Shown here: positions 2,954-18,701 of the stretch, in pieces
How the letters are laid out: each line of letters starts with the position of its first letter
How positions within the stretch are numbered: position 1 is the stretch's first letter
DNA from: Verrucomicrobiia bacterium
GTDB taxonomy: Bacteria > Verrucomicrobiota > Verrucomicrobiia > Limisphaerales > JADLHS01
Assembly: GCA_011525685.1 (NCBI GenBank)
Contig: WYBW01000070.1
Span: 1 to 64,000 of the forward strand
Direction: 5' to 3'
DNA length: 64,000 bases
Program-made: the position numbers and the translations under genes
Notes under the pieces: generated by a model
What the model was told of the DNA's origin: nothing
Database searches by the model: none
What the model saw: the letters and a program-made list of their open reading frames with translations, nothing else

Positions 2954-2977
2954 AGCAACCCTCAACCCCGAACTCTC

Positions 2978-3880
2978 ATGTTGAAACTCAAGCTCGCTTC
3001 GTTGTTGTTCGTCGCGGCGCTCCTCGTGTTGGCGCCCCGAGTTCAAGCCCAACCCTCAGCCCACTACGTTCCCGGTGTGGAAGGCATCAAGGGCGCGACC
3101 CTGCCCCCGCCGGGCGTTTATCTGCGCGACTACAATGTGTTCTACTGGGCAAACCAAGTGAACGACGACCGGGGCAAGGAAATCAAACCGGCGGACCCGG
3201 AGGTGTTCATCTACGCGAATGTCCCGCGTCTGGTCTGGATCACCGAGGTCCAAGTGCTGGGCGGATTCCTTGGGGTGGATGCCTTGTTGCCGCTGCAATA
3301 CACCAGCGTGGAGGCCAACACCCCGGGCGGCCCCTTCGACGACTCGACCTTCGGCATCGGCGATTTGTTTGCCGAGGGAACGATCTCCTGGCACCTGACG
3401 CAGTTTGACTTTTCGGTTGGCGCCGGCGTGTGGATGCCGACGGGCGACTCGGCCGACCCGCCCACCACCCGGGCTGGGTTGGGTTATTGGACGCCCATGC
3501 TGACCGCCGGTGTCACCTGGCATCTGGATGAGGCAAAGAAGTGGTCGCTTTCGGCCTTGAGCCGTTACGAATTCAACACCGAGCATCGTGATACGGACAT
3601 CACGCCCGGCCAGGCCTACACCTTGGAATGGGGGGCCAGTTATGCGTTGCGTCCGACGATTGATCTCGGGGTGGCGGGTTATTATCAGCGCCAGACCACT
3701 TCTGACAGCGGCAGCGGCTCCAGTTCGGACAAGGACTGGGTGTGGGGCGTTGGCCCGGAGATCAACATGATTTGTCCGAAGCTGGGTTTGATCACCTCAA
3801 TACGTTACGTGCGCGAAATCGAGGCAGAAAACCGCTTGCAGGGCAACACCGTCACGGTGACGTTGACGCGACGGTTTTGA
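2978..3880 (+). CDS. Outer-membrane MetA-pathway (phenol degradation)-like transporter
   Basis: A 300-residue exported protein. An N-terminal signal peptide (hydrophobic LLFVAALLVLA, cleavage near VQA-QP) precedes repeated amphipathic beta strands with alternating aromatic residues, and the chain ends in a terminal Arg-Phe as outer-membrane barrels commonly do. The pattern resembles the Phenol_MetA_deg family of putative porin-like transporters for hydrophobic compounds; the solute is unknown. The last 217 bp are repeated at 16756-16972 with about 95 percent identity and mainly synonymous differences. This copy is complete. A hairpin follows at 3934-3960. Confidence 0.7.
   Translation: MLKLKLASLLFVAALLVLAPRVQAQPSAHYVPGVEGIKGATLPPPGVYLRDYNVFYWANQVNDDRGKEIKPADPEVFIYANVPRLVWITEVQVLGGFLGVDALLPLQYTSVEANTPGGPFDDSTFGIGDLFAEGTISWHLTQFDFSVGAGVWMPTGDSADPPTTRAGLGYWTPMLTAGVTWHLDEAKKWSLSALSRYEFNTEHRDTDITPGQAYTLEWGASYALRPTIDLGVAGYYQRQTTSDSGSGSSSDKDWVWGVGPEINMICPKLGLITSIRYVREIEAENRLQGNTVTVTLTRRF
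3664..3880 (+). repeat. Direct repeat, left copy (3' end of MetA-like gene)
   Basis: The last 217 bp of the MetA-like gene up to its stop codon match 16756-16972 in the same orientation with about eleven differences. Similarity begins at TCTCGG and ends exactly at the stop codon. The two copies bracket the 12.9-kb accessory segment. Confidence 0.9.
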
Positions 3881-3933
3881 ACGACTCTGCGCCTGGTGGC
3901 TGTCACGAGAAATAATGCCGCGCTCTTAAGCAC

Positions 3934-3960
3934 ACGGGGGGTTGCGCCAAGCCCCCCCGT
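3934..3960. terminator. GC-rich hairpin between convergent genes
   Basis: ACGGGGGG pairs with CCCCCCGT around an 11-base loop. It sits between the convergent ends of the MetA-like gene and the secreted-protein gene that ends at 3974, where a bidirectional terminator is expected. There is no clear T tract, so the role is inferred from position. Confidence 0.4.
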
Positions 3961-3973
3961 CCGAACGCCGGCT

Positions 3974-4918
3974 TCAATACCGAATCGTGCCGCTGCCGGT
4001 GTAGCTGTAGTCTGCGTGGAAGACCGGGAACTCGCCTTCCCACTCCACCGTCAGATTTTCTGTCATGTCCCCCACGGCGGCTTCGAACCGGTCCGTGCCA
4101 CCGGCGAAATGAACAACGCAGGTCGCTCCCCCTCCACCCACCAAGTCCGCCGTGCCGGTCACCACCCAGAACACTTCATCCTTGCTGGCTGTGGTCAGTC
4201 GCCCATAGCCACTGATGCGGCCCGTCGCCATGTCCAGGAGTCCGATCCCGGTATTCGCGGAACGCCCGAAGTGCGTTCCCACCCCGACATCGCTGAGGAG
4301 GTTGAACGTCCCCATCGCTCCTGGCGTACCTGAGGGTAGAAGGATTCCCGGGTGAATCACGAATTCCTCGGTACGCGAAGCCCGCCACTTCATCGGGCGA
4401 TCGCCCGGCTTGCCTTTCGCCTCGATGATATAGCCAGTCCCCATGAGGGGTTCGCCGGCAGGCGCGTCGGTCGCGGTGAAATCCCAGCGCGCTTCGAGGC
4501 CCGCGTAACCGCCTCGTCCGACGCCCACCGCGGTCACGCTCGTGATGAAGTGCCCATCCTGAAGGGTGAGTGATCCTTGCCAATACGCTTCCCAGGACCC
4601 GCCCATATTCTCGATCTGGAAGGTTCCCCACATCGCACCGGTCCCGGTCGCCACGTCCTGGATGACGGAAACCCCGATGCGGGCGTTCCCGGAAACCCGT
4701 GGATCGGTGGCTGTTTCTACCGCGCTCATGATATTGCCCAGGATGAAAACGCTTTCACCATCGGTAAGCGTGGTTCCCTGCTCGACCATGCCAGTGATGG
4801 TTTCAACCGTGGTGAACGGGGTCTTCTTGGCTGCTGCCCCGGCGGTCAGTGAGGCCGCCAAGACCATTATGGAGATGTAGCCGAGGGCCGCAGCCCGCGG
4901 AGTTGTTACTATTTTCAT
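3974..4918 (-). CDS. Secreted protein of unknown function, paralog A of a sigma-linked family
   Basis: A 314-residue protein with a signal peptide (MKIVTTPRAAALGYISIMVL, cleavage near AGA-AAKK). I do not recognise the fold. It is clearly paralogous to the product of 11518-12462. Both start MKxVTT and share EAKGxPGxRPxK, GRSxNxGIxLxDxxTGxIxGxG, HFxGGTxRFxAxVG and the C-terminal GTIRY. The mature part is rich in glycine and beta-type sequence, suggesting an extracellular beta-sandwich or barrel. An AAAGGC ribosome-binding-like leader precedes ATG 4918 and is conserved in genes 11242 and 12462. Upstream at 5024-5050 lies the shared GTAAC-N16-CGTTG element, so expression probably depends on the ECF sigma factor at 15952-16704. 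Confidence 0.75.
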   Translation of the reverse strand: MKIVTTPRAAALGYISIMVLAASLTAGAAAKKTPFTTVETITGMVEQGTTLTDGESVFILGNIMSAVETATDPRVSGNARIGVSVIQDVATGTGAMWGTFQIENMGGSWEAYWQGSLTLQDGHFITSVTAVGVGRGGYAGLEARWDFTATDAPAGEPLMGTGYIIEAKGKPGDRPMKWRASRTEEFVIHPGILLPSGTPGAMGTFNLLSDVGVGTHFGRSANTGIGLLDMATGRISGYGRLTTASKDEVFWVVTGTADLVGGGGATCVVHFAGGTDRFEAAVGDMTENLTVEWEGEFPVFHADYSYTGSGTIRY

Positions 4919-5023
4919 GCTGTCTTGCCTTTCATTGGTTCGTTTTGTGGCCGGTCGGGCGCGTCCGACGATGCCTTACCCGAGGCGACGGAGCGGGACA
5001 GGCAGGACCGAACCCACCCGTTA

Positions 5024-5050
5024 CAACGGGAAAACTTGCGAAGGGTTACA
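5024..5050 (-). promoter_or_regulatory. Putative ECF-sigma promoter A
   Basis: On the minus strand TGTAAC (5045-5050) is followed after 16 bases by CGTTG (5024-5028), with TTTTCC directly before CGTTG. The same boxes with identical 16-base spacing occur at 11388-11414, 12610-12636 and 15915-15941. It lies about 105 bp upstream of the gene starting at 4918, giving a leader of roughly 100 nt. Confidence 0.7.
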
Positions 5051-5134
5051 TGGCTGCGACGGTATCTCTTCGGGCTTCGGCAGTGACTGGCGGAGTTGAC
5101 CCGAGGCAGCCCTCTCCTCGTGACGCTGGCGGAA

Positions 5135-5173
5135 GATGAGCGCGCGGTCCCGCTTTGGGACCAGGCGCTCATC
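5135..5173. other. Strong inverted repeat (hairpin)
   Basis: GATGAGCGC pairs perfectly with GCGCTCATC, and inside it GGTCCC pairs with GGGACC around a five-base loop, with a two-base mismatch between the stems. It lies downstream of the small gene pair (5830 to 5372, minus strand) and upstream of promoter A. It could end transcription of the pair, but no T tract follows. The rest of the 4919-5371 gap shows no supportable gene. Confidence 0.45.
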
Positions 5174-5371
5174 CGCCAGCAACTGGCGACCCTGAATCTC
5201 GATGGGTCTTCCCCGAAGCCAGGGCGACCCAAGCCGACCGACTCCCGCAGGTGCCAGTAGGTGATCGTGCCGCTGCCTTCAATGTTCGCACGTGTAGAGC
5301 AGCGGGCCGTCCCACATCGCCTTGGTTATCCACGATTGCGCGCCTCAATCCCTTGCGAGGGTCACTCTGCT

Positions 5372-5617
5372 TCAGACAACCTCGTCGCCGGTCGGAGCTT
5401 GACCGGGCAAGAGGAACGTTTTGACCAACTCGCCTTCCCCGCAGACGGTCAATTCAGGAAACCGCTTGAACCACCTCCGGTTTGGAACTTCGGGGTGAGT
5501 GTCCATCCACCGCACCATAAGCCGGAGCTGTTGGGCCGAAATACTACGCTGCTGAACGCGGTCCAGCCAATGCGCGTAGAGCCGCCGCGGCAGGTTCTGG
5601 CGGCGAATCTTGGGCAC
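5372..5617 (-). CDS. Small protein of unknown function, second gene of a two-gene unit
   Basis: An 81-residue basic protein starting MPKIRRQNLPRRLYAHWLDR and containing the compact motifs MVRWMDTHPEVP and CGEGELVKTFLLPGQ. It has no signal peptide or membrane segment. It begins three bases after the stop of the upstream gene at 5621-5830, so the two are surely co-translated. Size, charge and coupling resemble toxin-antitoxin modules, and pairs like this seem familiar from PVC genomes, but I cannot assign a known toxin family and see no nuclease motif. Function is left open. Confidence 0.6.
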   Translation of the reverse strand: MPKIRRQNLPRRLYAHWLDRVQQRSISAQQLRLMVRWMDTHPEVPNRRWFKRFPELTVCGEGELVKTFLLPGQAPTGDEVV

Positions 5618-5620
5618 AAA

Positions 5621-5830
5621 TCACTCGCCGTAAAATCCGCCCGTCATCGCGGACCTCAATCGAATGATCTCTGCCGGGTCACTGGAGTTTTCGAGGCGCT
5701 CGGCCAAGTCGCCGAGTTCATCCGCGCTGAGTTGCCGGCGGCGGGCCAACTCGAAGGCGTGCTGAATCACCTTGGTCTGCTCGTCCGGCGCCAGGCCATC
5801 CATTGCCTCAATCACTTTCGCCGCTGTCAT
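5621..5830 (-). CDS. Small helical protein of unknown function, first gene of a two-gene unit
   Basis: A 69-residue protein starting MTAAKVIEAMDGLAPDEQTK, with a Glu/Arg-rich helical middle (HAFELARRRQLSADELGDLA) and the ending AMTGGFYGE. The open frame continues upstream to 6094, but those residues are unlike the rest and ATG 5830 gives a compact protein. The acidic, helical, short character would suit the antitoxin half of an addiction module with the basic 81-residue partner behind it; this is inference only. It lies inside the accessory segment between the repeated MetA-like ends, where addiction modules are common. Confidence 0.55.
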   Translation of the reverse strand: MTAAKVIEAMDGLAPDEQTKVIQHAFELARRRQLSADELGDLAERLENSSDPAEIIRLRSAMTGGFYGE

Positions 5831-6000
5831 GCGTTCACATTTAGGCTCAGATTCACGGCTTGCCAAGCCAAAGCGCGAGGTCCGCCCTGAGCGCTTTTGT
5901 CCACCCGCCGTGGCCCAGTTGGCCTGCCAGACCTTCAGATCGGTCGAAGTCTCCACTGTCACAGCCTGCCCGGCGAGCGGCCTCGGTTCTACGAAAGCAG

Positions 6001-6747
6001 TTATGGTTTGGGATGAGCGAACAGCCAGTCGATGACGAGCGGCGAAAACTCCGCCGAGAGTGTCGGAATGTGGCCGCCACCATTGATCGTCCACAGTTCA
6101 ACGGCGCCGCCAGGCGGGCAGTTGGCGTAGCGTGTGACGGCCGTGTCAAGCCCCGGCCGATCGGTAGTAAGGTCCAGCGTGGGCACCGGGTCGGTCACCG
6201 GGCCGCTGGCGCCGTTGTGGCCGGCCCAGAGTTGGATCGTTTGGAGTGCACCGGGAAATTGAGGCGTATTCGCCCGAATGAGACCACCAAACATGCCGAT
6301 GATATCGGCGCCACCAGAGTAAGACAACTCGTCCGCGGTGCCGCAGATGTGGAGGATATTGACGGGTTGAACAGGTTGGCAACGGGAGGGATCCAGGAAG
6401 GTCATCCCGGCGAAGCTCGCGATACCGGCGATGAGCTCGGCCGACTGACACGCCATGCGATAGGCCATGAAACCCCCGTTGGAATGGCCTATCAGAAAGA
6501 TTCGCTTGCGGTCCACGGCAAAGCGCTGGGCGATTTGCTCGATCAGGGCCCGGAGGTAGCCGGCATCATCGACGCCAGTGTTCCCAAAATCCCCAACGGC
6601 GTCGGTGGCGTTCCAGAAAGGTTGGCCCCACTGGTCTCTAGTGCAGTGTCTCTGAAGTGTCTTTCGTAATGTGGGGTGAAGATGCCAGGGCCTTCCGGGC
6701 GCGGCGGATCTTTTCAAGAATCGCCTGTCCTTCTGCGCGCCATTCAT
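6001..6747 (-). pseudogene. C-terminal half of Calx-beta/esterase gene, cut off by IS630
   Basis: Host sequence runs from 6001 to 6640; the open frame beyond 6640 lies inside the IS. The fragment encodes the second half of an LpqC/PHB-depolymerase-type alpha/beta hydrolase: WGQPFWNATDA, the nucleophile elbow GHSNGG, the CGTADE region with an acid residue, and GGGHIP carrying the catalytic histidine, ending WLFAHPKP. Removing the IS and one TA joins it in frame to the fragment at 7807-8216 and recreates the junction CHPDGTRDQWGQPF, which is the expected family sequence. No start codon or promoter of its own is evident. Confidence 0.85.
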
Positions 6748-7747
6748 AGCGCTGCGGCTTGAGGTTGCGCTCGTGCAGATAGGCCCAGATGGCCTCGGAC
6801 AGTTCCCCGACGCTGGTAAAGCTGCCGGACAGGACCACGTCCTGACTCAAATCGCGGAAGAAGCGCTCCACCAGATTCAGCCACGATGCGCTCGTGGGCG
6901 TGAAATGGAGATGGAAGCGCGGGCGCTGGGCCAGCCAGCGCAGCACTTTCGGGTGTTTGTGCGTCGCGTAGTTGTCCAGGATCAGATGAATGTCCACCTC
7001 CGGCGGGGCCGCTGTTTCGATCGCCTTGAGAAACTTCAGCCACTCTTGATGGCGATGCCGGGGCGCCCGTTCCGCCAGAATCTTTCCATTGAGATAGTTC
7101 AGCGCGGCAAAGAGTGTCACCGTGCCGTGCCGGTAGTAATCGTGGGTGCGCGTAGCGATGTGCCCTTGGCCCAATGGCAGGCCTGGTTGCGTGCGTTCCA
7201 GCGCCTGGCATTGGCTCTTTTCATCGCAGCAGAGCACCAGTGCTCGCGTCGGCGGATCCAGATACAGCCCGACAATGTCCCAGAACTTCACTTCAAACTG
7301 CGGGTCGTTGGACAGCTTGAAGGTGCGCGTGCGGTGCGGTTTCAGATCGTTGGCGGCCCACAACCGCTGCACGGCCGAGCGGGACAACCCGCTGTGCCGG
7401 GCCATGCTTCGACAACTCCAGCGGGCTCGGCCTTTGGGCGGTCGCACGACTTCGCTCAATACGGTTTGCACCTTGTGCGCAGGCAGGGTTTGCGGGCGGC
7501 CGGGCCGGGGCGCTTCTTGCAGTCCGGCCAAGCCCAAATCCAGCACCCGCTGCCGCCATTGGCCGACTGTCACGTGACTGGTCTGGACTTCCGCCGCGAT
7601 TTGTTGGTTGTCTTTGCCCTCGGCGGCCAGCAGGGCAATCCGGGCACGGCGCACAATCTTCTGCGGCGTGTTGGGAGCTTTGACCAGGCGTTGAAGTTCA
7701 GTCCGCTGTTCGGCGGACAGGTGCAGCGGCAGTTTCGGGCGAGCCAT
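6638..7747 (-). CDS. IS630 family transposase
   Basis: A 369-residue DDE transposase. Residues 1-120 form helix-turn-helix/winged-helix DNA-binding domains (QQIAAEVQTSHVTVGQWRQR). The catalytic acids are visible in CCDEKSQ, LILDNYATH and WLNLVERFF, in the family order Asp-Asp-Glu. The start MARPKLPLHLS at 7747 was preferred; a start at 7771 adds eight residues. The stop codon TAG lies outside the element: T and A come from the duplicated target and G from the interrupted host gene. The gene is intact and could be active. Confidence 0.93.
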   Translation of the reverse strand: MARPKLPLHLSAEQRTELQRLVKAPNTPQKIVRRARIALLAAEGKDNQQIAAEVQTSHVTVGQWRQRVLDLGLAGLQEAPRPGRPQTLPAHKVQTVLSEVVRPPKGRARWSCRSMARHSGLSRSAVQRLWAANDLKPHRTRTFKLSNDPQFEVKFWDIVGLYLDPPTRALVLCCDEKSQCQALERTQPGLPLGQGHIATRTHDYYRHGTVTLFAALNYLNGKILAERAPRHRHQEWLKFLKAIETAAPPEVDIHLILDNYATHKHPKVLRWLAQRPRFHLHFTPTSASWLNLVERFFRDLSQDVVLSGSFTSVGELSEAIWAYLHERNLKPQRYEWRAEGQAILEKIRRARKALASSPHITKDTSETLH

Positions 7748-7804
7748 GCCGGGAGCTTGGCATTGCCTCATTCACTTAGTAAAGTCTTTTATGAGACACT
7801 GCAC
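6641..7804 (-). mobile_element. IS630-family insertion sequence, 1164 bp
   Basis: The ends are imperfect inverted repeats beginning GTGCAGTGTCTC on each side, with further partial match inward. The element is flanked by a duplicated TA (6639-6640 and 7805-7806), the target duplication of IS630/Tc1/mariner elements. It carries one transposase gene that fills almost the whole length. It interrupts a Calx-beta/esterase gene, whose frame is restored exactly when the element and one TA are removed, so the insertion looks recent. Confidence 0.93.
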
Positions 7805-8216
7805 TAGTCCCGTCCGGGTGGCAGTAGAGGAAGCCGCGACTTTCCGCCAAGGGTTGGAGGTGCATGAAGTTGTTTTCTATCCAAGTCCCGTCGAGAGAAT
7901 ACCCGTGAAGCGCGATCACCAAAGGTATGGGTGTTTTCCCGTCGTAGCTCGAAGGCACGTAGAGGTTGACGGGCCGAGGGCTTGTCACCCGATAGAACGA
8001 TGCCGGAATCGGAGGTTGGACGTTCCAAGGGCTCGTGGGGGCCGCCAACGTCTGCCAAGGTCCCGTCACGCGGTCGGCTCTTTGCACTTGTCCGCCTCCG
8101 GTCCAAGTCACGACACTTACGCCGTGATCGCGCCGGATGGCCAGCTTGGAATCGAACGGCGGGGCCACCGTGCAATAGTTCTTCTGGATGGTCACGGTGG
8201 TGGTGGCGGTCCCCAA
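7776..8216 (-). pseudogene. Middle piece of Calx-beta/esterase gene (end of Calx-beta, linker, start of hydrolase)
   Basis: Host sequence ends at 7806; the last residues of the open frame are read into the IS. The piece begins with the tail of a Calx-beta domain (GTATTTVTI), then a linker of the type common in verrucomicrobial secreted proteins (VTWTGGGQVQRADRVTGPWQ), then the N-terminal half of the hydrolase (VNLYVPSSYDG, PLVIALHGYS, GFLYCHPDGT). It is separated from the Calx-beta part upstream by a one-base frameshift in a run of seven G at 8222-8228 and from the rest of the hydrolase by the IS630 insertion. Confidence 0.85.
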
Positions 8217-9625
8217 AGTGGCCCCCCCGTCGGATTGCTCAACCTTACTTGGAAGTCGCCAGTGCGAAGCGCGGCCGGCAGGAGCGCAATGGTGAGGCTC
8301 TGCACGGTTTCGTTGGCCTCGAACTGCAAAGTTCCGGACGTCGCTTGGTAGTCTTGCCCGGCGTGGGCCGTGCCATCAGCCGTGGCATAGGCAACGGCGA
8401 CGGGGCCCAAGGCGCCGTCGTCGCCGCGCAAGACCGTGAGTTTGATCTCGCCGGCTCCCTGCCAGATGGAATACCTCGAGAGTTCAAAGCCCAGCCCCGG
8501 ATCGTTATCTTGAATCGAGACTGTGGTAGTCGCGCGGGGGCCGAGTACCGCTCCGCCGGTGGGATTGCTCAGCCTGACGAGAAAAGCTTTGCTGCCGTCA
8601 GCGACCCCGTCGTTGACAATCGGGATGGGCACCACCTTCACCTTGTCTCCGGGCCCGAGCGTCAGCGTGTTGGTCACACCGATATAATCGAGTCCATTGG
8701 TGGCCGTTCCGTCGGCGGTGGCACACTCCACCGTAATAGTGCCGCTCGTGTCATCGGTCCCGCGCAGCACACGAACCAGCGCCGCGCCCGCGTCTTCGCC
8801 AACCGTGTATTTGGCCGACTCGAACTGAAAACCCTGGTCGTCATCGACGATCGTGATCGTGGTCGTTTTCGACTGGCCAAGCGAGGCGCCGACGGCGTTG
8901 CTCAAAGTGACTCGGAAGCTCCGGTTCGATTCCCTGAGGCCGTTATTGAGGATGGGTATGGCCACCGTCATCAATCGCTCGTTGGGGGCAAACATGAGGT
9001 TGGTCGTGGCACCCGTGTAGTCCTGCCCGCTGAGAGCGGTTAAATCGCTGGTGGTCAGATCGACCGTCACAGGCAGGTTGCCATCATCACCTCGCACGAT
9101 ATCGATCAACACCGCGCCTGCACCTTCGACCACGGAATAACTGGTGAACCGAAAACTCACTCCCCGATCGTTGTCCGTGATGGAGACGGTGGCGTTCGTG
9201 CGGGTGCCGAGAACCGCCCTGCCAGCCGGGTTGCTCAGTGACACCGTGAACCTCTTGCTGCCCTCGACGAAGCCGTCGTTGAGGATGGGCACGACGATCC
9301 ATTGGTTGGTTATACCGGTGGCGAAGGCCACCGTCCCGTTGGTTGCGGTATACTTCACTCCGTTTGTGGCCGTGCCGTCGGTCGTGGCGTAATTGACACT
9401 CACCGCCGCGCTCAGGTCTCCCAGGCGTTGGACTCCGAGCGTTGCTGCGCCCTGGCTTTCGGGCACGCTGTAGGTGCTGGCGCTGAACTGGAGGAGGGGT
9501 TGGCCCAAACCAGCGGTGACCGTGGCGAGAGAGAGTGCGCCTGTGAGGAGCACCTCGACGCTCAAGCACCGAATGCTGGATCTCCATCTAGGGATGCTTT
9601 GCGTTTTCATGATTCTTGTTTTCAT
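8192..9625 (-). CDS. Secreted Calx-beta repeat protein, truncated by frameshift (5' part of a broken gene)
   Basis: A 477-residue product with a signal-like N-terminus (VLLTGALSLATVTAGLGQP). Four Calx-beta-type repeats of about 105-110 residues follow. Each shows the pattern YxVxEGxG...YxTxDGTA...DYxxxxGTL...ILNDG...LSNPxGGAxLG...TVxIxDND. The fourth ends abruptly as PLWGPPPPP because one G is missing in a G run. Adding one G restores GGATLGTATTTVTI, the usual repeat ending, and continues into 7776-8216. The intact ancestor (about 820 residues) would be a secreted Ca-binding adhesive array fused to an LpqC/PHB-depolymerase-like esterase. Starts at 9625 or 9610 are possible. The shared sigma element was not found upstream of this gene. 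Confidence 0.8.
   Translation of the reverse strand: MKTRIMKTQSIPRWRSSIRCLSVEVLLTGALSLATVTAGLGQPLLQFSASTYSVPESQGAATLGVQRLGDLSAAVSVNYATTDGTATNGVKYTATNGTVAFATGITNQWIVVPILNDGFVEGSKRFTVSLSNPAGRAVLGTRTNATVSITDNDRGVSFRFTSYSVVEGAGAVLIDIVRGDDGNLPVTVDLTTSDLTALSGQDYTGATTNLMFAPNERLMTVAIPILNNGLRESNRSFRVTLSNAVGASLGQSKTTTITIVDDDQGFQFESAKYTVGEDAGAALVRVLRGTDDTSGTITVECATADGTATNGLDYIGVTNTLTLGPGDKVKVVPIPIVNDGVADGSKAFLVRLSNPTGGAVLGPRATTTVSIQDNDPGLGFELSRYSIWQGAGEIKLTVLRGDDGALGPVAVAYATADGTAHAGQDYQATSGTLQFEANETVQSLTIALLPAALRTGDFQVRLSNPTGGPLWGPPPPP
8222..8228 (-). other. Frameshift site in homopolymer run
   Basis: Seven consecutive G on the coding strand. Eight would keep the Calx-beta frame through to the hydrolase. 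It may be a real indel, tolerated because the gene is already broken by the IS, a slippery tract, or a sequencing error; the sequence alone cannot tell. Confidence 0.75.
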
Positions 9626-9841
9626 CGCTTGGGTCTATTGACAGGAGAACTCATGGCAACCCGGGCCGCTTGGCCGGCCGGTGGTCTTTTTCATAGTCGC
9701 TCACCCTGCCGTGGTGCATTTCACGACCGCTTCGTGTTTCGCTTCTCAGAGGTTGCTCGCGTTGAATCCCCGGACTCAGCGGCAAGACGCCGCCGGGATC
9801 CGCGGGTGTGGACGCCAGAACCACCTGTTTGCGGAGACCGG

Positions 9842-11242
9842 CTAAGGAGCAATGTTGTCCTTGCTGGTCGTGGCGTGGTTCTTCGTGATGACAGTCGAGT
9901 CGTCAAAAGTGAAGTTACCCAGCCAGAAGACACCGCCGCCGATGCCCTGACCACCGGGGCCGCCGCCCAAGGCCAGGTTCTGGGTCACCGTCGCGCCCTC
10001 GAGGGACAGCGAGCCATACCAGGTCGCGCAGCCGCCACCCACGCCGTCGCCGCCGGTGCCGCCGGCGCGACCGGTACCGCCCTGGGCGCGGTTGTGAGCC
10101 ACGGTGGTGTTGATCACAGTGAGCGCCCCTTCGGACTCGCTCCGCAGTCCGCCGCCTCCCGCACCTCCGCCGTTGCCGCCAAGCCCGCCCGGGCCGCCCT
10201 GGGCCAAGTTGTGTTCCACGGTGGATTCGCTGATGGTCACGCTCGACACCCCGCTGACGTTTATGGCACCGCCCAATCCCCAGGCGCCCACTCCGCTTGG
10301 GACTCCGGCACCGCCGATGGCAGCATTGTGGTCGAACACGCAACCGCTGATACTGCCGTTTCCGTTGAGGAATTGGATGGCGCCGCCAACGCCCCAGGAG
10401 GTGCCTGGCGGAGCGCCGTCGCCGCCGATGGCCTGGTTGTGGTCCAAACGGCTGTCCCGGAGTTCCAGCCACCCCGGGCCCAGGCCCATGTCGCCCGTCC
10501 AAATGGCGCCGCCCACGCAACTGCCGGCTCCCATGGCGCCGCTGTTGTTATGGCCACCCAGGGCCTGGTTATGGCTGAACTTACTGCCGGTAATGCTCAG
10601 GACACCGACGTTTCCGATGGCCCCGGCGGCAGCGTGACCAGCGTAGAAGCCGTCGCCGCCATCGCCGCCGCGGGCGAGGTTGCGGCTGAATGAAGTGGTG
10701 GCAACGCGAAGGATTCCAAAATTGAAGACGCCTCCGGCTGACCCTATGCCAGGGCCGAACGGGCTCAGGCCGCTTTCGCCGAGGGCCTGGTTGTCGCACA
10801 CAATGTCGTTCACCAGCGTTAGGCTGCTGAAGTTGAGGATTCCACCGCCGGTGCAGGGCATGATGGGGGAGTTTCCGTCAGCCAAGCCGTCGCGGATCGT
10901 TGCCCCGGAGATCGTTGCCGCGCCGCCCGCGATGACGAAAACCCGGCTGGCGTTGTTGCCGCTGATCTTGAGCTTGTGAGAGCCCGGCCCTTGGATATCG
11001 AGGTCTTGCGTGATCATCAATGCGCCGCTGGTCAGCCTGATGGTGCCTTGCACGCCAAAGGTGATCGTGTCGCCTGCGGCAGCAGTGGCGATGGCTTCGC
11101 GGAGAGAGCCGGGGCCACTGTCGTTGAGCGTGGTCACCGTGAGGGTGTCTGCCCGGGCGCTGGCCAGTGCGGACGCCAAGGCGAGGGCAGCGATGCAGCC
11201 AATGGCCGCACGCCGTAGCATTATAGTTGTCACTGCTTTCAT
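9842..11242 (-). CDS. Secreted right-handed beta-helix (polymorphic-outer-membrane-repeat-like) protein
   Basis: A 466-residue exported protein. A signal peptide (MKAVTTIMLRRAAIGCIAAL, cleavage near SARA-DT) precedes LTVTTLNDSGPGSLREAI, the usual opening of bacterial parallel beta-helix surface proteins. About a dozen glycine-rich coils follow with recurring FSxNxAxGGxGG, LDHNQAIGGDG and VEHNLAQGGPGG motifs. It ends TKNHATTSKDNIAP with no sorting tail visible. The promoter and signal-peptide region is nearly the same as that of the gene at 11518-12462, although the mature proteins are unrelated. It is a likely ECF-sigma target through the element at 11388-11414. Confidence 0.8.
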   Translation of the reverse strand: MKAVTTIMLRRAAIGCIAALALASALASARADTLTVTTLNDSGPGSLREAIATAAAGDTITFGVQGTIRLTSGALMITQDLDIQGPGSHKLKISGNNASRVFVIAGGAATISGATIRDGLADGNSPIMPCTGGGILNFSSLTLVNDIVCDNQALGESGLSPFGPGIGSAGGVFNFGILRVATTSFSRNLARGGDGGDGFYAGHAAAGAIGNVGVLSITGSKFSHNQALGGHNNSGAMGAGSCVGGAIWTGDMGLGPGWLELRDSRLDHNQAIGGDGAPPGTSWGVGGAIQFLNGNGSISGCVFDHNAAIGGAGVPSGVGAWGLGGAINVSGVSSVTISESTVEHNLAQGGPGGLGGNGGGAGGGGLRSESEGALTVINTTVAHNRAQGGTGRAGGTGGDGVGGGCATWYGSLSLEGATVTQNLALGGGPGGQGIGGGVFWLGNFTFDDSTVITKNHATTSKDNIAP

Positions 11243-11414
11243 GTTGTTCTGCCTTTCGTTTGTTGGTTTCAGGCCGGTTCGTGTCTCGCCTGCCAGAGGC
11301 TGTTGGAACTGAATGGCGCTTTTTGGCGCACATTCCGCCCGGCACTCCCCGTGTTCTCAGGTACAACACCCGGCCGTCACCTTGTTGCAACGGGAAAACT
11401 TGCGGAAGGTTACA
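11171..11414 (-). repeat. Duplicated promoter/leader/signal-peptide module, copy 1
   Basis: About 244 bp running from the promoter boxes through the untranslated leader and the signal-peptide codons are closely similar to 12391-12636. Similarity fades where the mature protein begins, so the same export and expression cassette is joined to two unrelated mature proteins. Confidence 0.8.
11388..11414 (-). promoter_or_regulatory. Putative ECF-sigma promoter B
   Basis: TGTAAC (11409-11414, minus strand), 16 bases, CGTTG (11388-11392). It shares AGTTTTCCCGTTG with the copies upstream of 4918 and 12462. It lies about 146 bp upstream of the start at 11242. Confidence 0.7.
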
Positions 11415-11517
11415 GGACCGGGACCGGCATGAAGTCATTTGTCCTTGCACCATCTATGTTTTGGTTTCTTTCTTTCAGCCAGCCGCACGCTCCCGCGATC
11501 AACGGACATCCACTCAA

Positions 11518-12462
11518 TCAATAGCGGATCGTGCCGATCCCGCGGTAGCACATCTCCATCACCCACGGATCGTCGGTCGGGACGGGGCCGGAGGTGATCT
11601 CGATCTCGACCATGCCCACCACCGCGTCAAACCGGCCAGTACCGCCGCAGAAGTGGATATGCCCCTCCGGCACGCCTGTCGGGCCGTGAATGCCGTCGAA
11701 CACCCAGAAGAGTGTGTCCCCGTTCGCAGCTATGGCTGTTCCTGTGCCGGTAATGGCGCCAGTCACCGGGTCAACCAGGGAGATGCCTTCGTTGCTCGAC
11801 CGTCCCGCGTGCGTGGCCTGAGCCACCTCACTCACAATGTCGGCCTTGAGAACCATCGCAGGTCTCGGCGGGTCAAACGGCGCCGGTGGCCAGGAGGCTG
11901 GATCTAGCTCGAGGCAAGGCAGCAGTTGCCACCGCTCCGCACGGCAGGCGGTGATCTTAAGTGGCCGCTCGCCCGGCCCGCCCTTGGCTTCCACGATGTA
12001 GCCCGAGATCGCGAGCGTGTGGGGTTGCGGGCCTTCCGTATAGGTCAGGCGGGCGACCAAGCCGGCGTATTCGCCGCTGCCAGTGAGGGTCATGTGAAGG
12101 GTCGTGCCAAGGGACATGGTGCCGGTGAAATATCCTGTCCATTCGCCGCCGCCCTGGTCGGGCACGATACGGCCCCAGCCCCAGAACTTGCCCGCCACGG
12201 CATCCACCGCGTAGGTCCAACTGCCCAGGCCTTTGAGGCGCGGATCGGTGATGTCCTCGTCGGCGTCGCACGCGCGCCGGAACGCGACGAGATTCGCGCC
12301 GTCACCAAACCACTGTCCCGGCTCAAGGACGTAGTTCCCTTCGACCCCGGTGAAGTAAGTCTTCTTGGCGGCCGATTCGGCGGTCAGCACGGACGCCAAG
12401 GTGAGTGCGGCAACGACGCCAATAGCCGTGCGCCTCAGCACTGTGGTTGTCACTGCTTTCAT
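11518..12462 (-). CDS. Secreted protein of unknown function, paralog C of a sigma-linked family
   Basis: A 314-residue exported protein with signal peptide MKAVTTTVLRRTAIGVVAAL and cleavage near AES-AAKK. It is paralogous to the product of 3974-4918, sharing YIVEAKGGPGERPLK, HAGRSSNEGISLVDPVTGAI, HFCGGTGRFDAVVG and a C-terminal GTIRY. I cannot name the family. The frame is open to 12552, but ATG 12462 is preferred: it begins the recognisable signal peptide and is preceded by the conserved AAAGGC leader. The promoter element lies at 12610-12636. The 5' part is duplicated in the beta-helix gene next door. Confidence 0.75.
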   Translation of the reverse strand: MKAVTTTVLRRTAIGVVAALTLASVLTAESAAKKTYFTGVEGNYVLEPGQWFGDGANLVAFRRACDADEDITDPRLKGLGSWTYAVDAVAGKFWGWGRIVPDQGGGEWTGYFTGTMSLGTTLHMTLTGSGEYAGLVARLTYTEGPQPHTLAISGYIVEAKGGPGERPLKITACRAERWQLLPCLELDPASWPPAPFDPPRPAMVLKADIVSEVAQATHAGRSSNEGISLVDPVTGAITGTGTAIAANGDTLFWVFDGIHGPTGVPEGHIHFCGGTGRFDAVVGMVEIEITSGPVPTDDPWVMEMCYRGIGTIRY

Positions 12463-12636
12463 GTTGTTCTGCCTTTCGCTTGTTGGTTTCGCGGCCGGTT
12501 CGTGTCTCGCCTGCCTGGGACTGCTGGAACTGAATGGCGCTCGTTGGCGCACATTTCGCCCGGCGATCCCCGCGTTCTCAGTTGAAACACCCGACCGTCA
12601 CTTTCCTTCCAACGGGAAAACTACCGCAGGGTTACA
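12391..12636 (-). repeat. Duplicated promoter/leader/signal-peptide module, copy 2
   Basis: The counterpart of 11171-11414 in the same orientation. The signal-peptide codons, the CGAAAGGCAGAACAAC leader before ATG and the upstream boxes are conserved; small indels lie between the boxes and the start codon. Confidence 0.8.
12610..12636 (-). promoter_or_regulatory. Putative ECF-sigma promoter C
   Basis: TGTAAC (12631-12636, minus strand), 16 bases, CGTTG (12610-12614), with TTTTCC before CGTTG. It lies about 148 bp upstream of the start at 12462. Confidence 0.7.
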
Positions 12637-12755
12637 CTACTTCGGTGGGGATGTTCTGGCCTTTGCCACGGCGGACCATCAACGACCGATCGCGTTCAGA
12701 CTGTTGTTTCAGCCGGTTTCGAAGGTGGGCCAAGAACCGCCGCTTTCGAGATGGG

Positions 12756-15700
12756 TCAGTGCCAGTCCAGGTTGATCGCGGCCAACTGCCGACGAATCAG
12801 CGCCAGGTCCCACAGCAGAAGCGTCCGCTCATCCTCGGCGAGCGTGACGAGGCGCTGGCCGTCGGGGCTGAAGCCGAGCGGGATGCCGGCTTCCAGCGTG
12901 CCCAACTCCTGGCCGTCCGCGACGGCGTAAAGTTTCACCTGAGAGTCGCGCTGGTGGACCACGGCCAGGAGAGTGCCAGTGGGCGCGAACGCCATGGCTC
13001 CCACGTAATCGCCGGCCAATTCGCGCGGCAGTGACCGCTCCGCCTGCCACGAGCGGGTATTCCAGAAGCGATACTCGGCGGGCGAACCCGTCAGAAGCCA
13101 TCGGCCGTCCGGGCTGTAGGCGACATTGACGTTCTGGCCCACGGGTAACTCAGTGATCACCTGGCCGGACTCGAGATCCCTGACGCACACACCCCGGCCT
13201 TTCCAATTGCCCGAAGCGAATTGGCGTCCGTCGGGGCTTACGCTGACCCAGGTGCTGGGGCGGTGGCCCTTCAACCGCCGCGGTGGTGCGGCGTCACTCA
13301 GATGGATTACCAGCGCATCTGCGTCCGGTGACTGCAGTCCGACGACCACCAATCTTTGGCCGTCGGGCGTCAGGGCCGCATGCTCCGCCACACCCGACCA
13401 CAGCACGGCCGGCGGGCCGGGTTCGAGTGTTTCCAACACAGAATCCCACACCAGCGGCCAGCGCTGTACCCCTGAGATGCCGCTGGTGATCAATACGCCG
13501 TCGGGCAGAAAGATCGCCGAACGACTATCACCGGTCGGGACGATGCCGAGTGTCTGGCCAGTGGCGAGGCTCCAAAGCCGCACGCCCTCGCGCCCGGCCA
13601 CCGCCAGCAGACGTTGGTCAGGGCTGAAGGCCGCGGCGTTGCCAGGCACCGCCAGACCCAGGCGGCCCAGCCGGCGGCACTCGGGTGCGGAACTCACCCG
13701 CCAAAGCCCCGCCGCAGTCGCATACGGAGTTAACCTGATGAACCCGAGCATCGCGTCATCCGCGTTGAACGCCGAGGCATATCGTCCGGGGAGACTGAAC
13801 AACGGGCGGGCCAGGATCGGGTCCCAGAACCAGGTCTTGCCATCCCATCCTCCCGAAACCAGCAGGTCCGCCTGATGATTGAAAAGAACCCCGGTCACGG
13901 CTCCGGCATGTCCCTCGAAAACCGCCACACGTTTGCTGGTCGTCACATTCCACAGATAGACGCGTTCGTCGTTCCCTGCGCAGGCCAAGTGCTGGCCCCT
14001 CTGGCTCCAAGCCAGGGCTTGAATGCCGGAAGGATGCGGCAGCGATTGGATGAGCTCACCGGAAGCCAGATCGAACACGCGCACGATCCTGTCCAACTCG
14101 CTGCAAACGGCCAGCCGGGTGATTTGCGGATTGAAACGGAGTTCGTTGGGCGGGTGCGGTACGGAGATCGTTCGAAGCTCCGCGCCCAAGGCCAGATCAT
14201 ATTGATGAATTGTTCCGTTGGTTTCCGCGATGGCAAGACGTTGGTTGTCCGGCGAGAACTGGACCACGAACTGATGGATTGCGAGGGGTGGTTGCAGGAC
14301 CACTTTTCGCTGGCTGAGGTCCCAAACTTGGAAGTGATTCGTTCGGCGACCATACCTCTTCGCTGCCAGTAACCGACCGTCAGGGCTGAAACGGAGTCGG
14401 ACAGTTTCCGGCGTCTCAGGGCCGATGGCGCGGAGGCGTAACAGTTCGGCCCCGTCACTAACCCGGCGAATCACGATCTCACCATCCAGTTCGGTTCGGG
14501 CGTAGCGTTCGAGCCGCGCATCAAAGTCAAAACCATGTCCTGGCGAAAGTGACCATTCGCGGAAAGGCTGGGCGTCGGGCAAGGTCAGACAGGCGATCGC
14601 TTCATTGCGCAATTCGCGGGACGGACGAATCGCCGCGGCACGGGCAAGCGCGGCGAGGCTGTCAAAGCGCTGCCCGGCGCGTCCACTCCAACGGTTTGCC
14701 CGGGCCTGAGCCAGATAGGAGTGCCACAGGTTCTCAACCGCCTGCCGACGCGCCGTCTCGGCATGACGCCATTGCCACAGCACGCCGGTCAAACCGAGCG
14801 CGAACACCAGTACCAAACCAGCGGTGAGGCATGCGAGCCGTGGATTGCGCCGGCACCAGCGCGCAGCTTTGGCCGGCGTGCCTACCGGTCGAGCCAGTAG
14901 TGGCTTGGCGTCCAAATAGCGACCCAGTTCCTCGGCCAGCATCTGCGCGGTGGCGTAGCGTCGGGCGGGTTCTTTTTCCAGGCACTTCAGACAGATGGTT
15001 TCCAGGTCGCGCGGCAGCCGGGGATTGAGCAACCGCAGCGCCACCGGCTCGGTTTCGGCGACGAGCTTGAGGGTTTCCAAGGCGGTGTCGGCCTTGAACG
15101 GCGGTCGGCCGCTCAACAATTCGTAGAGGATCGCTCCCAACGCATAGATATCGGCGCGCGCGTCCACGGCGCGGTTGTGTCCAGCGGCCTGTTCGGGCGC
15201 CATGTAGCTCGGACTGCCGAACACTTGTCCGCTAAACGTCATCTCGGAACCGCTCCCCAACAGCTTGGCGAGCCCGAAGTCGGTCACGTGCGGTGTCTCA
15301 TCGGCGTCAATCAGGATATTTGACGGTTTGAGATCGCGGTGCAGCACGCCGTGTTCGTGTGCATGGTGGACGGCCTCGGCGATCATCTTCACGCAGGCAG
15401 CGGCCCGGTAGGGCGCCAAGGGATGTTCCCTGACCACCGCCGCCAGGCTGCGGCCGGCGACGTAATCCATCGCGTAAAAGTGCTGGCCTTCGATTTCCCC
15501 TGCTTCGTGAATTGCCACAATGTGGGGATGCTGCAACCGGGCGGCGGCGGTGGCTTCCCGGTGAAAGCGCTCCACGTCTTGGGGACGGGCCAGGTGTTCG
15601 GCGCGGATCATCTTGACGGCGACCAAGCGGTCGAGGTTGCGCTGACGGGCCTTAAAGACGACGCCCATACCGCCCTCGGCGATCAGTTCGAGCAGATCAT

Positions 15701-15908
15701 AGTCACCGAAGGAGCGCGGCAGTGACGCGTAGGAAGTGACAGGTGGTACGCCTACAAAATCCGATCCGGCCGCGGGTTCGTCGTCCTTCGCTTCACCGAG
15801 GCCCATTCGGTACAGGCAACGCGGACACATCGCTTTCGGGGCGTCTGGTGGGAGCGCCATGCCGCAACTCGGACAAGTGTTGTTCTCGGATGTCGCCATT
15901 GTCTTCAT
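12756..15908 (-). CDS. Membrane serine/threonine protein kinase with WD40-like repeat sensor region
   Basis: A 1050-residue protein. A zinc-ribbon-like CxxC pair (Cys12/15 and Cys28/31) precedes a PknB-type kinase at about residues 68-330: glycine loop AEGGMG, Lys99, HRDLKPSN at 190-197, DFGLAK at 210-215 and APE at 237-239. One transmembrane helix lies at about 359-378. Roughly 650 residues of WD40-like blades follow (FSPDGRLLA, SVSPDGRQFA, YSPDGRWLL), presumably outside the membrane. All catalytic residues are present. The ECF sigma gene lies 43 bp upstream, and a copy of the shared promoter element sits right before this start. If that element is used, transcription begins at about the ATG at 15908, so MATSENN at 15899 or a leaderless mRNA is likely. 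It probably controls or reports to the sigma factor. Confidence 0.92.
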   Translation of the reverse strand: MKTMATSENNTCPSCGMALPPDAPKAMCPRCLYRMGLGEAKDDEPAAGSDFVGVPPVTSYASLPRSFGDYDLLELIAEGGMGVVFKARQRNLDRLVAVKMIRAEHLARPQDVERFHREATAAARLQHPHIVAIHEAGEIEGQHFYAMDYVAGRSLAAVVREHPLAPYRAAACVKMIAEAVHHAHEHGVLHRDLKPSNILIDADETPHVTDFGLAKLLGSGSEMTFSGQVFGSPSYMAPEQAAGHNRAVDARADIYALGAILYELLSGRPPFKADTALETLKLVAETEPVALRLLNPRLPRDLETICLKCLEKEPARRYATAQMLAEELGRYLDAKPLLARPVGTPAKAARWCRRNPRLACLTAGLVLVFALGLTGVLWQWRHAETARRQAVENLWHSYLAQARANRWSGRAGQRFDSLAALARAAAIRPSRELRNEAIACLTLPDAQPFREWSLSPGHGFDFDARLERYARTELDGEIVIRRVSDGAELLRLRAIGPETPETVRLRFSPDGRLLAAKRYGRRTNHFQVWDLSQRKVVLQPPLAIHQFVVQFSPDNQRLAIAETNGTIHQYDLALGAELRTISVPHPPNELRFNPQITRLAVCSELDRIVRVFDLASGELIQSLPHPSGIQALAWSQRGQHLACAGNDERVYLWNVTTSKRVAVFEGHAGAVTGVLFNHQADLLVSGGWDGKTWFWDPILARPLFSLPGRYASAFNADDAMLGFIRLTPYATAAGLWRVSSAPECRRLGRLGLAVPGNAAAFSPDQRLLAVAGREGVRLWSLATGQTLGIVPTGDSRSAIFLPDGVLITSGISGVQRWPLVWDSVLETLEPGPPAVLWSGVAEHAALTPDGQRLVVVGLQSPDADALVIHLSDAAPPRRLKGHRPSTWVSVSPDGRQFASGNWKGRGVCVRDLESGQVITELPVGQNVNVAYSPDGRWLLTGSPAEYRFWNTRSWQAERSLPRELAGDYVGAMAFAPTGTLLAVVHQRDSQVKLYAVADGQELGTLEAGIPLGFSPDGQRLVTLAEDERTLLLWDLALIRRQLAAINLDWH

Positions 15909-15914
15909 TCATTC

Positions 15915-15941
15915 CAACGGGAATGGACCACACAAGTTACG
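15915..15941 (-). promoter_or_regulatory. Putative ECF-sigma promoter of the kinase gene
   Basis: CGTAAC (15936-15941, minus strand), 16 bases, CGTTG (15915-15919), with TTCC before CGTTG. Only the boxes match promoters A-C; the spacer is otherwise different, so this copy is not explained by recent duplication. It lies in the 43-bp gap between the sigma and kinase genes, and the CGTTG box ends only six bases before the ATG at 15908. Confidence 0.65.
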
Positions 15942-15951
15942 CGCCGCGAGT

Positions 15952-16704
15952 TCAGCGGCTGACAACCATAAACAAGTAACGCATTTCTTCCTCAATTTCT
16001 TCGGGATGCGTTACGGTGTGGGCAATCTCCTCGCGCAGCAGTGCGCGATACCGACGTCGCAGTCGGTGGACCTTCACTTTCACGGACGTTTCGCTCAAGC
16101 ACAACCGGGATCCCAGTTGGGCATAGGTCTCCGCGCCCCAATCGCCCAAAAGGCAGCCTTGGAGTTGATCAAAAACAGCTACGCGATCGGCAATCACGGC
16201 TTCCTGGCGCAGCCGGTCCAGCACTCGGTCCAACAGGTCCAAGGCCCAACGGCGATCGTAGAGGCTTTCAGCATTGGCTTCGACTCGTGCGTCCAGCCCG
16301 TAGCGTTGCTCAGCCTGGTTCCAATTCAGCCGCAATTCAGGACAATCCCCGCCGCGTTTAGCCGTGCGTGACTTCTCCCATTGGTCTGCAAGAAAGTGTT
16401 TGAGACACGCCAGCAGGAAAGAGCGAAATCTTCCTTTCTCCGGCCCCACGGCGTGCAGGAAATCCTTTCCCAGCAGGTGCGCGAAGAAGCTCTGGGTCAG
16501 GTCTTGCGCGTCGGTCGCCGAATACCCGCGCCGCCGCACGTAGGCGTAGAGGGGATACCAGTAAGCGCGACAGAGCTTTTCCAGCGCCTCATCCGCCTGT
16601 GGAGACTCGCCGCTCCCCGCTTGCAGCACCACGGTCCAGTGCGTGGTCGCAAACAGTCCCGCCGGCTTCGAGGAAGAGGCAACTCCATCGCTGGAATTAC
16701 TCAT
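15952..16704 (-). CDS. ECF-type RNA polymerase sigma factor
   Basis: A 250-residue sigma-70-family ECF factor. Region 2 lies at about residues 35-105 (YVRRRGYSATDAQDLTQSFF, FRSFLLACLKHFLADQ) and region 4 at about 180-235 (AQLGSRLCLSETSVKVKVHRLRRRYRALL, a helix-turn-helix). The product is longer than most ECF factors, as in groups coupled to serine/threonine kinases in Planctomycetota and Verrucomicrobiota. A kinase with WD40-like repeats is directly downstream. The GTAAC-N16-CGTTG element was not found upstream of this gene itself. I infer that it drives the kinase and the three secreted-protein genes. Confidence 0.9.
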   Translation of the reverse strand: MSNSSDGVASSSKPAGLFATTHWTVVLQAGSGESPQADEALEKLCRAYWYPLYAYVRRRGYSATDAQDLTQSFFAHLLGKDFLHAVGPEKGRFRSFLLACLKHFLADQWEKSRTAKRGGDCPELRLNWNQAEQRYGLDARVEANAESLYDRRWALDLLDRVLDRLRQEAVIADRVAVFDQLQGCLLGDWGAETYAQLGSRLCLSETSVKVKVHRLRRRYRALLREEIAHTVTHPEEIEEEMRYLFMVVSR

Positions 16705-16755
16705 GGCTGAAGGCTAGCGTCCCGGAACAGTATTGAAAAGCTCATCTTGGCGTCG

Positions 16756-16972
16756 TCTCGGGATGGCGGGTTATTACCAGCGTCAAACCACCTCCGACAT
16801 TGGCAGCGGCTCCAGTTCGGACAAGGACTGGGTGTGGGGCGTTGGCCCGGAGATCAACCTGATTTGTCCGAAACTGGGTTTGATCACCTCAATACGTTAC
16901 GTGCGCGAAATCGAGGCGGAAAACCGCTTGCAGGGCAACACCGTCACGGTGACGTTGACGCGACGGTTTTGA
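16756..16972 (+). pseudogene. Truncated second copy of MetA-like gene (direct repeat, right copy)
   Basis: The last 217 bp of a MetA-like gene, matching 3664-3880 in the same orientation. The frame runs from about 16763 to the stop at 16972 and encodes GYYQRQTTSDIGSGSSSDK through to VTLTRRF. Seven of the nine differing codons after the first are synonymous, so the copy appears to descend from a gene that was under selection. Everything before TCTCGG is missing: no signal peptide and less than a quarter of the barrel remain. The upstream neighbour is the sigma factor gene, transcribed away from it. Confidence 0.85.
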
Positions 16973-17049
16973 AGTTCGCCACTTGTTGGTGGCAGGGGAA
17001 TGCGTCGTCACCAGTTCGTCACTTCCACTGTGTGACAAACTCTCGTTGT

Positions 17050-18030
17050 TCAATCCTCCGCTTTCGATTCCCGGGCCGTCAGGTCCTGCACCGCCTGCCG
17101 CACGTCCTTGCCGTCGTAAAGCATGGCGTAAACTTCCTCCATGATCGGGGTTTCGACTTTGTGGCGGCGCGCCAGTTCGCGCGCGGAGCGCGCTGTCGGA
17201 TACCCTTCAGCCACGGCCGTCATGCTCGCGACAATCGCCTCGGCCTTCTCGCCCTTGCCGAGGCGCTCGCCAAACCCGCGATTGCGGCTCAGGCGCGAAA
17301 AACAGGTCACCATCAAGTCGCCCAAGCCGCTCAGGCCGGTGAAGGTGTCGGCCTGCGCGCCGCACGCCACTCCCAGCCGCCGCATCTCGGCAATCGCCCG
17401 TGTCACCAGGGCCGCCTTGGAGTTGTCGCCAAAGCCCAACCCGTCGCACACGCCCGCGCCGATGGCGATGACGTTCTTGAGCGCGCCGCCCAGTTCCACG
17501 CCGTGAATGTCGGTGCTCGTGTAAACGCGGAAGGCCGGACTGTGAAACAAGGCCTGTACGATCTGAGCCGCTGCTTCGTCCTCACTGGCGGCGACGATGG
17601 CTGTTGGAACACCCCGGGCTACTTCCATGGCCAGTGTCGGTCCCGACATGGCGACGATGCGGGCGCGAGGCGAGTTCTCCTCGAGGATATCCGACATGGT
17701 GTGACCGGTTTCAAACTCGATGCCCTTGGTCACGCTGACGACGACTCCCGTGAAGTCGCGCAGACATTCAGTCGCTTTGCGGAAGCCTCTCGAGACGCTG
17801 GCCACCACAACCAGTTCCGCACCGGCCACGGCCCGGGCGGCGTCCGGTTCAGCCACGAGTCCGGCAGGCAGTTCAATACCCGGCAGATAACGCTCGTTGC
17901 GGCCGGACTGGCGAATGGCCTCGATCGTCTCCGGGAAGTAGTCCCAGAGGGTGACCTCGTTGTTGCGCGCGGCCAACATGCGGGCCAGCGCCGTTCCCCA
18001 GGCACCCGCGCCAAGCACGGTGATTTTCAT
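17050..18030 (-). CDS. gpsA: Glycerol-3-phosphate dehydrogenase [NAD(P)+]
   Basis: A 326-residue cytosolic enzyme that makes sn-glycerol-3-phosphate from dihydroxyacetone phosphate for phospholipid synthesis. The N-terminal dinucleotide fold has GAGAWGTA at residues 7-14. The family segments VTKGIE, MSGPTLAMEVARG, GGALKNVIAIGAG (catalytic lysine), GLSGLGDLMVTC and NRGFG are all present, and the length is normal. The ATG at 18030 overlaps the stop of plsY by four bases; the longer open frame to 18402 is an artefact inside plsY. Together the two genes supply and acylate glycerol-3-phosphate. Confidence 0.97.
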   Translation of the reverse strand: MKITVLGAGAWGTALARMLAARNNEVTLWDYFPETIEAIRQSGRNERYLPGIELPAGLVAEPDAARAVAGAELVVVASVSRGFRKATECLRDFTGVVVSVTKGIEFETGHTMSDILEENSPRARIVAMSGPTLAMEVARGVPTAIVAASEDEAAAQIVQALFHSPAFRVYTSTDIHGVELGGALKNVIAIGAGVCDGLGFGDNSKAALVTRAIAEMRRLGVACGAQADTFTGLSGLGDLMVTCFSRLSRNRGFGERLGKGEKAEAIVASMTAVAEGYPTARSARELARRHKVETPIMEEVYAMLYDGKDVRQAVQDLTARESKAED

Positions 18031-18701
18031 CGAAGTTCTTCCTTCTTCTTCTTGAAATGGATGCGGCTCTCTGTGCCGGCCAGCAGCCGCTGGATGTTGC
18101 TTTTGTGTTTGTAAATCGCCATGAGGCCCAGCCCCGTCGTCACGAGGCCCAACGCGATGCTCTCTTCCGTGAACCAAACCGCCGTGGGCAGGGCCACCGC
18201 TGCCGCGATGGAGGCCAGTGAAACGTAGCGCGTGATCACGAACAGAAGAATCCACGCGGCGAGAGCGAGGCCCACCGCCACCGGCGCCAGCGCCAGGTAC
18301 ACGCCCGCCGAGGTGGCGATGCCTTTGCCGCCTTTGAACCGCAGCCAGCAGGTATAGTTGTGGCCAAGAATCGCCGCGATGCCGGCGACGATCCCCAGCC
18401 ACTCGCGGGTGCTCGCGTCCGGCTGGCCGTCCCGGCCGAACATCACTGGCGCGGCGTCATGGAGTTCGGGATGGAAATTCACGACCAACGCCACTGCGGC
18501 GAAGCCCTTGAGCGCGTCCATGAAAAGCACAAAAATTCCCGCCGGCTTGCCCAGGAATCGGAACACATTCGTCGCCCCGATGTTGCCGCTGCCGACGCTG
18601 CGAATGTCCACCCCCTTGGCCCGGCCCACGAGGTAACCCGTCGGAATCGAGCCGAGCAAATAGGCCGCGAGCGCGGTCAGGATGTAAGCGAGAATCGGCA
18701 C
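18027..18701 (-). CDS. plsY: Glycerol-3-phosphate acyltransferase PlsY
   Basis: A 224-residue inner-membrane enzyme that transfers acyl from acyl-phosphate to glycerol-3-phosphate. The three family motifs are visible: GSIPTGYLVGR and SVGSGNIGATN near the N-terminus, LKGFAA and the GHNYTCWLRFKGGKGIATS loop in the middle. About five membrane helices are apparent. It is the first gene of a two-gene unit with gpsA (four-base overlap) and is divergent from the phosphonate operon across a 117-bp gap. Confidence 0.96.
   Translation of the reverse strand: MPILAYILTALAAYLLGSIPTGYLVGRAKGVDIRSVGSGNIGATNVFRFLGKPAGIFVLFMDALKGFAAVALVVNFHPELHDAAPVMFGRDGQPDASTREWLGIVAGIAAILGHNYTCWLRFKGGKGIATSAGVYLALAPVAVGLALAAWILLFVITRYVSLASIAAAVALPTAVWFTEESIALGLVTTGLGLMAIYKHKSNIQRLLAGTESRIHFKKKKEELR

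Follow-up and report, generated by a model that had tools for sequence, protein, structure and literature searches.

The two similar stretches that precede unrelated secreted-protein genes in this window, a 64,000-nucleotide contig of a 6.7-Mb genome, are quite probably copies of the 5′ region of a local regulon governed by an ECF sigma factor and a kinase, and recombination among such copies would supply newly arrived cargo genes with both a promoter and an export signal. The sigma factor gene and a WD40 kinase gene lie upstream of the first of these secreted-protein genes, AC1, and are read in the same direction. The features of the locus, in coordinates of the window, are:

15952–16704, minus strand: ECF-type sigma factor, predicted regulator of the boxes (TIGR02937 and Pfam Sigma70_r2, both below cut-off; clade support 100/99)
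15915–15941, minus strand: diverged box (GTAAC...TTCCCGTT, spacing unchanged) directly upstream of the kinase gene, also found in three other genomes
12756–15908, minus strand: WD40-repeat serine/threonine protein kinase, presumed partner of the ECF (Pfam Pkinase 9e-51, WD40 8e-35)
12610–12636, minus strand: AC1 promoter box, TGTAACCCTGCGGTAGTTTTCCCGTTG
12382–12609, minus strand: cassette copy 1, AC1 leader and signal-peptide codons
11518–12462, minus strand: AC1, secreted protein of 314 aa, low-confidence model of two β-barrels
11388–11414, minus strand: BH promoter box, TGTAACCTTCCGCAAGTTTTCCCGTTG
11162–11387, minus strand: cassette copy 2, BH leader and signal-peptide codons
9842–11242, minus strand: BH, secreted β-helix protein of 466 aa
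8192–9625, minus strand: Calx-beta protein (Pfam Calx-beta 1e-86)
5024–5050, minus strand: AC2 promoter box, TGTAACCCTTCGCAAGTTTTCCCGTTG
3974–4918, minus strand: AC2, paralogue of AC1 (39–40%)
5021–5328, plus strand: segment 90% identical to the Calx-beta box and upstream region of the sister species

When the stretch 11171–11414 was compared with the whole genome by BLASTN, it matched itself, 12391–12636 (84%, E = 7e-69) and 31 bp at 5020–5050 (90%), and there were no further matches. The full similar stretch is slightly longer, running from 11162 to 11414 and from 12382 to 12636 (83%). Read on the minus strand, it consists of the box, a ~145-nt leader, a GAAAGGC ribosome-binding region, the start ATGAAAGCAGTGAC and ~25 signal-peptide codons, and the two copies precede AC1 (12462–11518) and BH (11242–9842), which are unrelated secreted proteins. 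Measured against shuffles, the leaders of AC1 and BH are similar at z = 33 and their first 25 codons at z = 16, while codons 33–60 give z = −0.1; the similarity ends at the end of the signal peptide. A preliminary description made from the sequence had already noted that the two stretches are alike through promoter, leader and signal-peptide codons and that the mature proteins behind them differ, and both observations hold. It also reported a third gene (start 4918) that keeps the box and an AAAGGC leader, and AC2 does retain a 27-bp box, a shorter leader and GAAAGGC. AC2 is related to AC1, and BH is unrelated to both. Strong likeness of the signal-peptide codons is confined to AC1 and BH, most other members sharing promoter and leader only. 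A search of window positions 1–20000 returned no Rfam match for an RNA element in the leader.

The locus has several further features. A 218-bp direct repeat (3664–3881 and 16756–16973, 95% identical) brackets everything from the ECF gene to AC2; its sequence is the 3′-terminal part of a gene for an outer-membrane protein (2978–3880), and the second copy, upstream of the ECF gene, ends ~50 bp from the start of that gene. This copy is nearer to the window's own gene than to the sister's (79%), and a recent rearrangement is therefore indicated. No clean empty site for the repeat was found in the sister, where the neighbours of the corresponding gene differ. An IS630-like element at ~6638–7806 (transposase 7771–6638), with inverted ends TGCAGTGTCTC and GAGACACTGCA between copies of CTAG, sits inside an alpha/beta-hydrolase gene that is uninterrupted in the sister genome. 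The Calx-beta ORF overlaps the next hydrolase ORF in a different frame at a C-rich run (8192–8216), which resembles a frameshift within a possible single long gene. At 5372–5830, a pair of short ORFs on the minus strand (81 and 68 aa) might be toxin-antitoxin-like; the 68-aa ORF has no Pfam match, and the stretch is missing from the corresponding place in the sister.

The box has the form TGTAACC-N8-GTTTTCCCGTTG, which in ECF-sigma terms reads AAC-N16-CGT; AAC and CGT boxes are a general hallmark of ECF promoters (PMC8103513). With AAC at −35, CGT at −10 and the spacing of ECF promoters, it stands upstream of three genes of the window and in five other genomes. Allowing up to two mismatches, it occurs three times in the 6.7-Mb genome, always in the ECF/WD40-kinase locus, and a reversed control pattern occurs nowhere in it. 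Among 146 genomes (this one and its relatives), the box was present only here and in the sister species (G001), which has six. A looser pattern run against one genome per species for 84,980 species gave 11 loci in five metagenome-assembled genomes (MAGs), and all box-carrying MAGs are of the Limisphaerales/Pedosphaerales type. There are more than two copies, with three here, six in the sister and more in four other genomes. All of the genomes named here are MAGs; the AC1–BH arrangement is alike in two separate assemblies, which argues against a chimera. Carriage by phage or plasmid was considered and rejected, since viral contigs contain no box and three plasmids have only partial BH-like matches.

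Is the ECF sigma factor of the locus the regulator that reads these boxes? The protein matches the sigma70-ECF superfamily (TIGR02937) at E = 5e-9, below the curated cut-off, and its Pfam Sigma70_r2 score is just below the cut-off. Its gene adjoins a Ser/Thr kinase gene, the arrangement that marks an ECF-kinase regulon. The box-linked ECF of each MAG is 63–71% identical to that of the window, and the other sampled ECFs reach at most 53%. The six motif-linked ECFs, from six of six genomes, form a single clade (support 100/99; 0 of 500 shuffles). In the sister, linkage of box and ECF was examined for the boxes other than C7 and C64. From this co-occurrence of box and ECF clade we infer that the ECF probably reads the boxes, with the kinase as its activator. 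In four of the six genomes the kinase gene has a diverged, identically spaced box upstream of it; no box lies upstream of the ECF genes themselves, and no box of this form was found at the expected places of the genome's other ECF loci. At other ECF-kinase loci (L037, L042 and L043), large genes resembling those for secreted proteins lie directly behind the kinase and have no box. In the known case of EcfP, the uncharged, phosphorylatable residues STTA take the place of the DAED motif of region 2.2 as a phosphorylation switch (PMC8999054). The ECFs of all six genomes keep an acidic motif there, DAQD or DARD and then LT, and an EcfP-type phospho-switch therefore cannot be assumed. Within the clade, the ECF of the window (15952–16704) does not group with that of the sister (L034, 6134–6886). 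This, together with a C-terminal remnant of a kinase gene beside AC2, is why the ECF-kinase unit may itself have been exchanged, or different copies of it lost.

The genes behind the boxes vary widely. In the window they are AC1, BH and AC2; in the sister, orthologues of these three along with two Calx-beta proteins and an RCC1-repeat protein; in FR_27, BH, AC1 and two AC-like genes; and in H5_VER1, AC1, an AC relative and a truncated BH. The remaining two genomes have an Ig-domain protein and a carbon-nitrogen-hydrolase (nitrilase-fold) protein. With AC-family, β-helix, Calx-beta, RCC1, Ig and nitrilase-fold proteins behind it, one promoter serves several unrelated and mostly secreted proteins. 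The AC1-then-BH pair with both of its cassettes is also present in the sister genome. The Calx-beta gene of the window has no box of its own, and its sister orthologue has one. Neither AC1 nor BH has a Pfam or NCBIfam match. The top PDB matches of the BH model are a tailspike and polysaccharide lyases, all β-helix proteins and in keeping with the β-helix label given to BH at the outset, with weak scores. A dirigent- or allene oxide cyclase-like barrel was considered for AC1 and set aside on weak matches and a low-confidence model.

Full-length BH was found in only 3 of 196 genomes, which belong to two families. FR_27 belongs to another family than the genome of the window, and the mature parts of the two BH proteins are 86% identical. 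Their 5′ ends are unrelated: between the two BH genes the leader gives z = 1.0 and the signal peptide z = 0.4, with z = 11 for codons 33–60, whereas between BH and AC1 of the window the leader gives z = 33 and the signal peptide z = 16. The leader and signal peptide of BH thus appear to have been replaced with those of AC1 in the genus of the window. AC1 is the likely donor because its signal peptide can be recognised in four species. As FR_27 is the sole outgroup with a full-length BH, the direction of the swap was deduced by parsimony, with the truncated BH of H5_VER1 as a second reference.

Comparison with the sister species indicates recombination among the promoter regions as well. In a quartet of the AC1 and BH cassettes from the window and the sister, 11 of 16 informative sites group the cassettes by genome, three group them by orthologue and two are crossed (bootstrap 0.98; one-sided p = 0.029 for 11 against 3). 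Sites beyond the signal peptide, 61 to 0 of the orthologue type, were excluded from this evidence because AC1 and BH are non-homologous there. The grouping by genome could reflect gene conversion or two independent captures; both are possible because the signal-peptide junctions differ slightly between the window and the sister. The promoter of AC2 is mosaic: upstream (5021–5328) it shares 90% identity with the stretch that precedes the Calx-beta gene of the sister, and downstream it corresponds to the sister's AC2. The same segment includes, on the plus strand, the C-terminal remnant of a WD40 kinase gene.

Judging from their codons and from the few genomes with a full-length BH, the cargo genes themselves were probably transferred between lineages after these had separated. 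The excess of codon identity over the expectation from codon usage is 0.46–0.73 for AC1, AC2 and BH and 0.94 for Calx-beta, against 0.06–0.25 in a small background of three ordinary genes and 0.02–0.13 for the ECF and kinase; it is this distance of the cargo above the background that points to movement.

An ordinary ECF regulon could account for some of these observations, if AC1 and BH have shared their 5′ region since an old duplication, were joined to their mature parts long ago and undergo no current swapping. The sister's AC1–BH pair, with both cassettes kept, may be as old as the genus, and the box alone would suffice to conserve the promoter cores. We regard this explanation as unlikely, given that the BH of FR_27 combines a closely related mature part with an unrelated leader and signal peptide, that the cassettes group by genome and not by orthologue, and that the AC2 promoter is a mosaic.

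Two further explanations invoke dedicated or mobile machinery, and we consider each of them very improbable. In phase variation or antigen switching, a recombinase would shuffle one expressed 5′ end among silent mature genes; the conserved promoter and signal-peptide part in front of differing mature proteins would suit such a system, as would a Calx-beta gene that has lost its box. The three boxed genes, however, each have their own box and start, no set of silent promoterless partners is present, and of those proteins of the locus that were scanned, the IS630-like transposase alone was recognised as a recombinase. The shared segment might instead be a mobile or repeat element, such as a transposon end or a phage-borne promoter, inserted upstream of several genes. 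Horizontal movement of the regulon genes, the IS630-like element within the locus and the direct repeat that flanks it would fit such an element, but the box is absent from viral contigs and from every sampled genome that lacks this ECF clade, and the cassette ends within coding sequence, at the signal-peptide boundary.

Under the preferred reading, that of a recombining 5′ region in an ECF-kinase regulon, the kinase would presumably sense something and activate the ECF, and the ECF would then start transcription at the AAC-N16-CGT boxes before the secreted-protein genes and, in four genomes, before the kinase gene as well. The copies of box and leader could act as patches of homology, because every gene carries its own near-copy. 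Recombination or gene conversion between them would homogenise the cassettes within a genome and provide an incoming gene for a secreted protein with a functional promoter and an export signal; BH in the genus of the window would have taken the 5′ end of AC1 in this way, presumably by homologous recombination. The idea of a cassette that captures surface proteins, put forward in the preliminary description, is supported as far as the BH 5′ end appears replaced, the cassettes recombined and the cargo exchanged, but no dedicated capture mechanism is visible. That account was right about a cassette shared by unrelated cargos; it missed the likely ECF/kinase promoter, and the signal peptide is strongly shared only by AC1 and BH. 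The boxes resemble the promoter of the adjacent ECF/kinase pair, which explains much of the sharing.

More tentatively, the locus may be a natural plug-in system, in which the ECF-kinase pair sets an adapter of promoter, leader and signal peptide that horizontally arriving secreted-protein genes repeatedly gain by recombination; we would sooner offer this as a possibility than defend it. If true, the output of the regulon would change fast under constant control. The case bears on how new genes come under regulation and have their products exported, since here one short exchangeable piece can bring both. It permits direct comparison of a likely donor (AC1), a recipient (BH) and an unaltered outgroup (the BH of FR_27). 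A further outcome is the prediction of a promoter and its targets for a clade of kinase-linked ECFs that is known here only from uncultured Verrucomicrobiota genomes. A limited literature search of incomplete coverage found no paper in which promoter and signal peptide are exchanged like an adapter within an ECF regulon.

ECF sigma factors linked to kinases are known from groups ECF43, ECF59, ECF61 and ECF62, and from EcfP-PknT of Vibrio and EcfK-PknS of Xanthomonas (PMC8103513, PMC8999054). The locus described here resembles them in the adjoining ECF and kinase genes, the AAC/CGT boxes and the nearby targets (PMC8103513, PMC8999054), a likeness of architecture. It differs in the acidic DAQD/DARD of the ECF in place of STTA, in the WD40 kinase and in the changing secreted-protein targets. 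The vpma, vsp and vsa loci of mycoplasmas likewise place a conserved 5′ part before differing surface proteins and involve recombination, with Xer1 switching expression by inversion (PMC2268961); here, in contrast, each boxed gene has its own promoter and the changes are evolutionary, between species. As in gene families that evolve in concert by gene conversion, the copies of one genome resemble each other more closely than they do their orthologues; here, however, homogenisation is confined to promoter, leader and signal peptide, a tract joined to mature proteins that are not homologous.
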